Translations under genes and position numbers: made by a program
From: an endosymbiont of Escarpia spicata
GTDB lineage: Bacteria; Pseudomonadota; Gammaproteobacteria; Chromatiales; Chromatiaceae
DNA length: 64,000 nucleotides
Direction: 5' to 3'
NCBI GenBank assembly: GCA_003349915.1
Contig: QFXE01000005.1
Span: 124,001-188,000, forward strand
In this document: positions 20,009 to 21,078 of the stretch, piece after piece
How positions within the stretch are numbered: the stretch's first letter is position 1
How the letters are laid out: the number at the start of each line of letters is the position of its first letter
Notes under the pieces: model-generated
The model's input: only the letters and a program-made list of their open reading frames with translations
What the model was told of the DNA's origin: nothing
The model's database searches: none

Positions 20009-20084
20009 TGGTGGGCCATGAAGGATTCGAACCTTCGACCAATGGATTAAGAGTCCACTGCTCTACCAGCTGAGCTAATGGCCC
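20009..20084 (-). tRNA. tRNA-Lys (anticodon CUU)
   Basis: The cloverleaf starts GGGCCATTAGCTCAGCTGGT and ends ATGGCCCACCA with an encoded CCA. The anticodon loop is CTCTTAA, giving anticodon CUU for codon AAG. T arm is GAAGGTTCGAATCCTTC. Last gene of the tRNA operon, just before the terminator. Confidence 0.95.
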
Positions 20085-20135: not shown

Positions 20136-20212
20136 TGGGGTGGACGATGGGTCTCGAACCCACGACCGCCGGAATCACAATCCGGAGCTCTACCAACTGA
20201 GCTACGCCCACC
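20136..20212 (-). tRNA. tRNA-His (anticodon GUG)
   Basis: Anticodon loop TTGTGAT gives GUG. The extra 5' G (position -1, base 20212) faces discriminator C73, the identity mark of tRNA-His. The 3' CCA is encoded. Confidence 0.95.
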
Positions 20213-20278
20213 ATAAACTCTTTTAACCGCCGCATTTGGCACGCCCGGCAGGATTCGAACCTGCTACCCTCGGCTTAG

Positions 20279-20938
20279 CTTACCAACTACGCCTTTCGAC
20301 GCCCCACCTGCGTGGGTTTGTGGTCTGGACTATCTCTTCACCATCTCAGGTGCCACACGTATAGTCTCTACGGAGCCCTTCGATAAGCAGAGGCCAACCT
20401 TACATTAGCCGTCTGATTATTCTTGGGTTTCTCTACCCTCAAAGTGACAGACCTGTTGTAGTCTTTGGGATCCAGGTAGTAACACTCATCCGTCTCAGGG
20501 CAATACAGACAATAAAGATCAACTTCATCTTTATCAATCTGTTGCATATGTGTCCCATTCTTATCTGCCCAACTTGAGCGAAAATGAACGGTGATGCTCC
20601 CTGTTTTATCAACAGATTTGTATTTGACCTGTATCCTTTTGAACTCCTTGTCTTTGTACGCTACCAGATCAAAGGAAGCGTGCTCTGTCACCGGGTACAA
20701 AATAATGTACCCTTGCTCGAAAAGATCAAGCTGAGCCTTCAAAACACCCAGATCGCCTTTGTCTTTGGTGTGATGCATCATAAAATGCTACCCAACACCA
20801 ATGGACGGGTCAACCAAAGGTTTCCTCGGGATTGCCATCAGCATGACCTGTTAAGGTTTCCCCGATACAGTGCGGTCCACTTTATGGGTTCTGTTTCCCC
20901 ATAAAGGCTCCTACCGTGTACGCCGTCGTACACACTTA
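20279..20938 (-). ncRNA. Group I self-splicing intron in tRNA-Arg(UCU)
   Basis: The 660-nt insert follows a U at the 5' splice site and ends in G (20279), as group I introns do. Core elements are visible on the minus strand: P/Q-like GGCAATCCCGAGGAAACC (complement of about 20819-20836), R-like AGAGACTATA (about 20361-20370) and S-like AGATAGTCC (20327-20335). GACTAT in R pairs with ATAGTC in S to form P7. A hairpin GTGTACG/CGTACAC (20916-20933) lies in the P1-P2 region. The intron carries an endonuclease gene between the P/Q and R elements. Confidence 0.9.
20368..20781 (-). CDS. Intron-encoded PD-(D/E)XK homing endonuclease
   Basis: The 137-residue protein begins MMHHTKDKGDLGVLKAQLD and has a restriction-like core with Asp38 (HASFDLVAY) and Gln51/Lys53 (RIQVKYKS). 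The D-x12-Q-x-K spacing equals that of I-Ssp6803I, the homing endonuclease of the cyanobacterial tRNA-fMet intron. It presumably cleaves intronless tRNA-Arg genes to spread the intron. The gene lies wholly inside the intron. Its TAG stop (20368-20370) falls within the R element of the catalytic core, so coding and ribozyme sequences overlap slightly. Confidence 0.88.
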   Translation of the reverse strand: MMHHTKDKGDLGVLKAQLDLFEQGYIILYPVTEHASFDLVAYKDKEFKRIQVKYKSVDKTGSITVHFRSSWADKNGTHMQQIDKDEVDLYCLYCPETDECYYLDPKDYNRSVTLRVEKPKNNQTANVRLASAYRRAP

Positions 20939-21001
20939 AAGGCCGATGCTCTATCCAAATGAGCTACGGGCGCAGTAAAACTTTCATCCCTACAAAGCAT
21001 T

Positions 21002-21078
21002 TGGTCGGGGTAGAGAGATTCGAACTCCCGACATCCTGCTCCCAAAGCAGGCGCGCTACCAGACTGCGCTATACCCCG
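21002..21078 (-). tRNA. tRNA-Pro (anticodon UGG)
   Basis: Starts CGGGGTATAGCGCAGTCTGG; anticodon stem CCTGC/GCAGG encloses loop TTTGGGA, anticodon UGG. T arm GGGAGTTCGAATCTCTC-like and 3' CCCCGACCA with CCA encoded. First gene of the leftward tRNA operon. Confidence 0.95.

Follow-up and report, generated by a model that had tools for sequence, protein, structure and literature searches.

A putative mobile group I intron encoding a PD-(D/E)XK homing endonuclease in the anticodon of tRNA-Arg(UCU) of an Escarpia spicata endosymbiont

The stretch analysed here (the window) comprises 64,000 nucleotides, positions 124,001 to 188,000 of contig QFXE01000005.1 (assembly GCA_003349915.1), from an endosymbiont of Escarpia spicata belonging to the Chromatiaceae. 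It carries a tRNA cluster on the minus strand, in which ARAGORN placed tRNA-Pro(UGG) upstream (21002-21078) and tRNA-His(GUG) and tRNA-Lys(CUU) downstream (20136-20211 and 20009-20084) of a split tRNA-Arg(UCU) gene. Run without its intron option, ARAGORN did not report this split gene in the window; with introns allowed, it found Arg(tct) with a 660-nt intron at the locus. The 5' exon (20939-20973, minus strand, 35 nt) ends with U34 and is identical to the respective part of the uninterrupted gene in four of five same-genus genomes, and the 3' exon (20237-20278, minus strand, 42 nt), delimited by ARAGORN and by the same-genus comparison, extends from C35 to the CCA end. Joined on the minus strand (20973-20939 and 20278-20237), the two halves give a 77-nt cloverleaf with a UCU anticodon according to ARAGORN. 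The insert occupies 20279-20938 on the same strand, between U34 and C35, and its last base is G (20279), as delimited by ARAGORN, the alignment of the flanks and the fold described below. These exon and intron coordinates are exactly those that a sequence-only reading of the window had proposed, and ARAGORN agreed with its identification of the joined exons as tRNA-Arg(UCU).

An uninterrupted tRNA-Arg(UCU) gene, identical in 77 of 77 bases, is present in four of the five other species of the genus, always between tRNA-Pro and tRNA-His, tRNA-Lys, as in the Pro-Arg-His-Lys cluster of the window. In the fifth species (G001), the search for Arg(UCU) gave Arg(CCG), Arg(ACG) and one short fragment only, so the gene is either absent from this assembly or too divergent for the search. 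When the flanks of the window locus were joined without the insert and aligned to one of the empty sites (L179), they were 96% identical over 675 bases, the main difference being the spacer directly upstream of the 5' exon, which is about 20 bases longer in the window. Since the first base of the intron is C in three relatives (L054, L069 and L116), we placed the splice site directly behind U34 rather than one position further on.

The secondary structure of the insert was written by hand from the window sequence and consists of P1, P2, P3, P4, P5, P5a, P6, P7, P8, P9, P9.1 and P10 (56 pairs). We compared it with the introns of 33 loci from which the ORF had been excised; 30 could be aligned, and three (L063, L079 and L121) were dropped as the anchor patterns failed. 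Standard pairs were found in 96.0% of 1677 cells and double-sided changes in 30 of the 56 pairs. Slid controls, in which the 3' partners were moved by 1 to 3 columns, gave 35-43% standard pairs and 8-13 pairs with double changes; as the structure was derived from one of the aligned sequences, some excess over these slid versions is expected anyway. Shuffling the letters 500 times resulted in a mean of 84.7% and a maximum of 86.1% standard pairs, with a mean of 17.5 pairs showing double changes.

All helices lie on the minus strand. Covariation was found in P2 (20880-20906; 20906-20898 with 20888-20880), with standard pairs in 99.6% of 270 cells and double changes in eight of nine pairs, in P3, whose 5' strand (20870-20875) pairs with 20358-20353 in a pseudoknot with P7 (100% of 180 cells, five of six pairs), in P8 (20352-20349 with 20342-20339; 100% of 120 cells, three of four pairs) and in the hairpins P9 and P9.1 ahead of the 3' splice site (20289-20316; 91.8% with five of five pairs, and 95.3% with four of five pairs, respectively). 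The 5' strand of P4 (20861-20864, partner 20830-20827) showed standard pairs in 99.2% of 120 cells and double changes in one of four pairs. P6 (5' strand 20819-20825, partner 20378-20372, the latter formed by the final ORF codons) is the weakest helix, with 82.9% of 210 cells, double changes in two of seven pairs and one constant mismatch, a pair that is never standard. The P7 pairing GACTAT/ATAGTC, which had been predicted from the sequence, was located at 20366-20361 with 20333-20328, within the segment 20328-20366 that also holds the 3' strand of P3 and P8; it was standard in 98.9% of 180 cells, without covariation. In the internal guide (20908-20912), positions 20908-20910 pair with C32, U33 and U34 to form P1, with a U34.G wobble at 20910, and 20911-20912 pair with C35 and U36 to form P10. 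P1 was standard in 100% of 90 cells and P10 in 95% of 60 cells (57/60), both with zero double changes, that is, conserved and non-covarying. P1, P7 and P10 give no covariation support because they are nearly invariant. The U.G pair at the P1 splice site and the terminal G of the intron, the latter also anticipated, were present in 30 of 30 aligned rows. The insert therefore has the structural features of a group I intron, namely the conserved core P3-P8 with the P3/P7 pseudoknot and P4-P6, and the covarying fold together with the exon anatomy supports the original proposal of a group I intron with a homing endonuclease at U34|C35 of tRNA-Arg(UCU). The window intron has no helix between P7 and the 3' strand of P3, which would be compatible with subgroup IC3.

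The sequence-only reading had named a match to the Rfam model RF00028 as a check and its absence as a refutation; searching the window gave no match at E ≤ 1. This is probably due to the 137-aa ORF that fills P6, as the model would need to bridge a 400-nt ORF. Among nine ORF-less relatives, four matched at E ≤ 0.01, two of them above the cut-off of 50 bits (the viral contigs L211 with 87.5 bits and L220 with 81.8 bits) and two below it (the bacterial loci L194 with 35.9 bits and L191 with 29.7 bits); the other five (L196, L198, L203, L208 and L210) gave no match at E ≤ 0.01. We did not count the missing match as a refutation, because a profile match is a detection tool and not a defining feature, and the structural features are present. 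Weak matches of the window to YrlA and plastid Rfam models coincide with tRNA genes, and we attributed them to a resemblance to tRNAs.

The ORF in the P6 loop (20368-20781, minus strand) encodes 137 amino acids. It stops at a UAG (20370-20368) located between P6 and P7, and its last codons form the 3' strand of P6. The product matched Pfam family PF11645 with 138 bits (cut-off 26); no NCBIfam family scored above its cut-off. ("2ost", I-Ssp6803I of Synechocystis, was the sole significant sequence match in the PDB, with E = 4e-4.) An AlphaFold model built with 36 sequences had a mean pLDDT of 89.4, and its first four Foldseek matches were all 2ost chains, with E-values down to 1.1e-10 and TM-scores of 0.66-0.78. 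D10, D38 and K53 are invariant across 36 relatives and Q51 is nearly so; by analogy, we presume these residues to be catalytic. On the strength of the family match and the predicted fold, we identify the product as a PD-(D/E)XK homing endonuclease resembling I-Ssp6803I, a type that the sequence-only reading had left unnamed, with cleavage as its predicted function. Among 15 intron-borne ORFs, dN/dS was 0.04-0.11 in the nine of 105 pairs that were usable (pS < 0.62; the others were synonymous-saturated), and pN/pS over all 105 pairs had a median of 0.25 and a maximum of 0.37. These substitution ratios indicate purifying selection on the window ORF.

The longest ORF ended in a proline codon followed by the stop in 31 of 33 intron-borne loci, the ORFs of the other two (L122 and L126) being broken, and UAGAGACUA was found in 30 of 30 aligned intron rows. 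The free-standing relatives examined mostly extend beyond the end point of the intron ORFs. A joint between ORF and intron that is common to several phyla hints that the composite arose once, or that a constraint is at work. GATGGACGGGTCA, located ahead of an actinobacterial nuclease that is free-standing (L081, 2970-2982), resembles inverted GTTGACCCGTCCATTGG, which precedes the ORF in the window (20814-20798).

The sequence-only reading had made the need for splicing depend on the number of tRNA-Arg(UCU) genes. The host assembly (4.06 Mb, 23 contigs, completeness 100) has 42 tRNA matches, and neither these, nor ARAGORN, nor BLAST with the joined tRNA revealed another tRNA-Arg(UCU) in it; the ARAGORN tRNAs include Arg(ACG), Arg(CCG) and Arg(CCU). 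The assembly has gaps, since Ile(GAU) and Ala(UGC), which are usual in rRNA operons, are absent from its tRNA list. The split gene thus appears to be the only tRNA-Arg(UCU) of the genome, and judging from the gene complement its splicing is likely to be essential to the cell. AGA accounts for 78 of 14501 codons in 35 mechanically chosen ORFs of the window. Of the 31 genomes with nuclease and intron, 30 could be surveyed with ARAGORN at one best-match locus each, and an uninterrupted Arg(UCU) was found at a single locus, that of the intron-bearing MAG G429, where it lies at a contig end. A degenerate second tRNA-Arg(CCU) with 31 bits is located in the host genome about 0.9 kb from the intact copy (contig C16, L045, 30-95) and is perhaps an integration-site remnant.

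The intron is not confined to the window. We ran a P7-P8 pattern with up to two mismatches on 369 sampled genomes of the class and on IMG/VR contigs, and found the core in 15 of the 369 genomes, including that of the window, at 16 places. At 13 of these, ARAGORN recognised an intron-bearing Arg(UCU); two more, L200 and L201, share the junction but received the label Ser, and parts of the exons are missing in L205. A full nuclease match was present at four places, two fragments at L204 and none at 11, and the nuclease-less introns of the class sample were 235-389 nt long. The distribution in the class is patchy. The sequence-only reading had suspected that a U34|C35 insertion in tRNA-Arg(UCU) is uncommon; this holds only in part, as the insertion is not isolated and had already appeared in print for giant sulfur bacteria. 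In IMG/VR, 16 contigs matched the pattern, and in 15 of them the junction lies before CTAAGC, while L207 ends too early. ARAGORN identified eight of the 16 as Arg(UCU), mislabelled six and missed two. The L213 intron carries a nuclease with 53% identity and that of L214 a broken one, whereas five others (L215, L217, L218, L221 and L222) contain an HNH-like ORF instead of the PD-(D/E)XK one, with HNH_3 confirmed in L215 and L221, the two that were tested. The viral-contig introns of 219-231 nt, which leave no room for an ORF of this kind, are found in L208, L210, L211, L212, L216 and L220, among others. Phage replication genes are present on L221 and L222 and a weak tail match on L211; the proteins of L212, L216 and L220 belong to families without known function or had no match. 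Some of the remaining IMG/VR contigs may not be phage.

With high confidence, we interpret the insert as a group I intron that is mobile and interrupts the apparently sole tRNA-Arg(UCU) gene of the genome; for this intron we infer splicing, cleavage and homing. The precursor tRNA would fold into P1-P9, and a guanosine bound in P7 would cut after U34, which is paired as U.G in P1. U34 would then attack after the terminal G, joining the tRNA halves into a working tRNA that reads AGA. Translation of unspliced precursor would yield the 137-aa PD-(D/E)XK endonuclease, which would cut uninterrupted tRNA-Arg(UCU) genes near the anticodon, and repair from the intron-bearing copy would spread the intron.

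A splicing intron that has lost its mobility, its ORF being kept for another use (e.g. as a splicing helper) or decaying, is a rather unlikely alternative to this mobile intron. The ORF-less and decayed copies speak for it, i.e. the 11 of 16 class places without nuclease match, the fragments in L204 and the broken ORFs of L122 and L126; however, the window ORF is intact, dN/dS in its lineage is as low as 0.04-0.11 in the usable pairs, the site is empty in four species of the same genus, and the free-standing relatives beside intact genes cannot help this intron to splice. We consider it very improbable that the insertion is dead and the tRNA a pseudogene, with AGA decoded by some tRNA that the assembly lacks. 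Splicing is deduced from DNA, the assembly is in 23 contigs and AGA is rare (78/14501), all of which would be compatible with a pseudogene, but the exons are letter-perfect in comparison with intact genes, the fold is maintained by compensatory change, no second Arg(UCU) was found in the assembly, and only one of the 30 best-match loci in nuclease- and intron-containing genomes showed an uninterrupted copy. The position in the anticodon loop would also suit an archaeal-type intron, which a splicing endonuclease excises by acting on a bulge-helix-bulge. This has next to no probability in view of the group I helices P1-P9 with the P3/P7 pseudoknot, the RF00028 matches of relatives and the U34|C35 site, which differs from the position 37/38 usual for archaeal-type tRNA introns. 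We rejected both the archaeal-type and the pseudogene reading.

The nuclease itself is closely associated with tRNA-Arg(UCU). Scanning GTDB contigs gave 82 confirmed loci, of which the best 80 were classified by script: 43 adjoin an intact tRNA-Arg(UCU) at a distance of 59-326 nt (39 upstream on the opposite strand, four downstream on the same strand), 31 lie in an intron with a readable junction, two have the intron core only (L055 and L061) and four were unassigned. Reading by hand showed three of the latter (L063, L095 and L121) to be introns in tRNA-Arg(UCU), and the fourth (L066) to be such an intron cut by the contig end, as seen from its twin L010, which brings all 80 of the best 80 loci inside or beside tRNA-Arg(UCU). 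The script placed 21 of 23 IMG/VR loci with at least 47% identity (L132-L154) beside Arg(UCU); L132 is beside it as well, its CTTCTAA loop having been read as Pyl by ARAGORN, and in L148 the nuclease lies beside Arg(CCU). The close relatives are thus inside or beside tRNA-Arg(UCU) at 102 of 103 loci (the best 80 of GTDB and 23 of IMG/VR), many of which are near-copies or from species of one genus, so that these are not 103 independent cases. The script did not tie 24 distant IMG/VR relatives (L155-L178, 28-41% identity) to tRNA-Arg(UCU), and plasmids gave no match. In Synechococcus phage Sf-FR1 and Acinetobacter phage Herod, the nuclease gene directly follows tRNA-Arg(UCU).

The nuclease is free-standing beside an intact gene in Actinobacteria, Deltaproteobacteria and phages, and fused into the intron in Gammaproteobacteria, Bacteroidota, Acidobacteriota and viral contigs, with decayed copies also present. 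Wenzhouxiangella limi (L073), which is in culture, has the intron, and Nocardioides L082 has a free-standing nuclease. The viral contig L208 shows a further arrangement: its tRNA-Arg(UCU) is interrupted by an ORF-less intron of 229 nt, and about 75 nt downstream begins a PF11645 nuclease that is free-standing and extended at its C-terminus. By analogy, this single case corresponds to what is called collaborative homing. A protected target allele in the hosts of free-standing nucleases was considered and rejected, as the anticodon loops beside these nucleases vary without a simple rule.

It is possible, if doubtful, that the free-standing relatives lie beside tRNA-Arg(UCU) because the tRNA is cargo, as in phage tRNA cassettes, or because the adjoining spacer is the target. 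The viral-contig copies do occur in tRNA arrays, and more distant relatives are found beside other tRNAs (e.g. in Vibrio phage Chester). Against this, ten actinobacterial genomes with a free-standing nuclease (30 loci scanned of 49 matches) have one Arg(UCU) each, which suggests that it is the resident gene and not an extra one; the orientation and side differ between groups (39 versus four of 43 loci), which is more readily explained by a shared target than by a single inherited cassette; and where the lineage is intron-borne, the insertion lies precisely in the anticodon of tRNA-Arg(UCU). In a tree of the nuclease (91 rows, 142 columns), the intron ORFs of Gammaproteobacteria group together (SH-aLRT 83), and those of Acidobacteriota are near the free-standing nucleases of Actinobacteria (support 87). 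A single clade of all intron-borne members was not rejected (p-AU 0.427, with five long rows left out); the second constrained tree scored above the free quick search, which was thus not exhaustive. Because the backbone of the tree is unresolved, we claim no direction or number of moves into the intron. We give about even chances to a broader proposal, in which the tRNA is the target of a dedicated nuclease lineage that is found in every state needed by theories of mobile-intron birth (free-standing, beside an ORF-less intron, fused, and also decayed). Phages with the nuclease and the intron in their own tRNA genes may then be the vehicles, collaborative homing at an essential tRNA of the cell would have yielded the window intron as its end product, and introns of viral contigs would have taken up HNH nucleases as well.

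Among known systems, I-Ssp6803I is similar to the window nuclease in its fold, in being encoded by a group I intron and, reportedly, in its specificity for a tRNA anticodon region; it differs in its tRNA (tRNA-fMet) and has 24% identity in the structural alignment. The bacterial introns in tRNA-Arg(CCU), tRNA-Ile(CAU) and tRNA-Leu(UAA) also belong to group I, are small and interrupt the anticodon loop, but they occupy other host tRNAs and are not known to carry an ORF. For tRNA-Arg-TCT itself, passages of PMC4853749, citing MacGregor 2013, mention putative group I introns from Beggiatoa BOGUAY and Ca. Thiomargarita nelsonii. They share with the window the host tRNA and the anticodon, and come from sulfur gammaproteobacteria, as the window presumably does. 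The coordinates given there span 324 bases, i.e. about 247 without the 77 exon bases, which is the size of the ORF-less relatives found here; those passages, unlike the present case, give the intron without endonuclease, structure or splice site. In searches of the open-licence PMC literature, we found no other earlier mention of introns in bacterial tRNA-Arg-TCT and no report tying the nuclease family to tRNA-Arg(UCU). What looks new is the nuclease lineage tied to this tRNA, with 102 of 103 close relatives inside or beside the gene.

Collaborative homing, in which a free-standing endonuclease and an ORF-less intron share one site, is described for phages in section 12 of Hausner 2014 (PMC3984707) and in passages of PMC10448857. 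The case named there concerns the terminase gene of a phage, and T7-like phages and a cyanophage are cited. The ORF-less tRNA-Arg(UCU) intron of L208 with its free-standing nuclease just downstream is similar; in the present case, however, a tRNA gene is the site, and members of the nuclease lineage are also found inside introns and beside intact genes, and in cellular chromosomes too. According to Hausner 2014 (PMC3984707), all phage introns known by then were in protein-coding genes, and the long-standing question of how mobile elements were born from a splicing RNA and a DNA-cutting gene was argued there from few phage systems. Group I introns can now be placed in phage tRNA genes, and related nucleases at one short target, the anticodon of tRNA-Arg(UCU), are free-standing, neighbouring or intron-borne in bacteria and phages. 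Steps of mobile-intron assembly may be visible at this gene, and the three forms make the union of intron and nuclease testable: do they share a cut site, and does the free-standing one drive the ORF-less intron? The wider interest lies in this family of nucleases and introns and not in the single window copy, although the latter also illustrates that a probably essential tRNA escapes a standard tRNA search (ARAGORN without the intron option).

Several loci deviate from these patterns. In L055, L061 (2700-3560) and L205, tRNA-Pro(UGG) and the intron-bearing tRNA-Arg(UCU) both appear truncated at T-arm or splice-site sequences, either by real decay or by misassembly at tRNA repeats. L062, a MAG record titled Halobacteria archaeon, contains the intron and the nuclease in a tRNA cluster of gammaproteobacterial type and is probably a misbinned contig. 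In four viral contigs (L138, L142, L146 and L147), tRNA-Arg(UCU) and a free-standing nuclease lie between two halves of another tRNA-like gene, which ARAGORN with introns read as Lys(CTT) or Ile(TAT) with the halves 566-689 nt apart, as though a second tRNA gene had received the unit. More distantly related nucleases (26-30% identity) in Salmonella phage SM5 (L285) and Vibrio phage Chester (L291) adjoin non-Arg phage tRNA genes, in SM5 a tRNA that is Met according to the depositor and Asn according to ARAGORN, and in Chester between Met and Tyr tRNAs; the wider family may specialise in tRNA genes. Microcoleus phage My-WqHQDG (L286) has a group I-like intron in Arg(CCT), annotated as a 286-nt tRNA, and the uncultured phages LR756508 and LR756501 (L288 and L289) carry group I-like introns in a tRNA that was labelled Lys by ARAGORN and in Leu(TAA).
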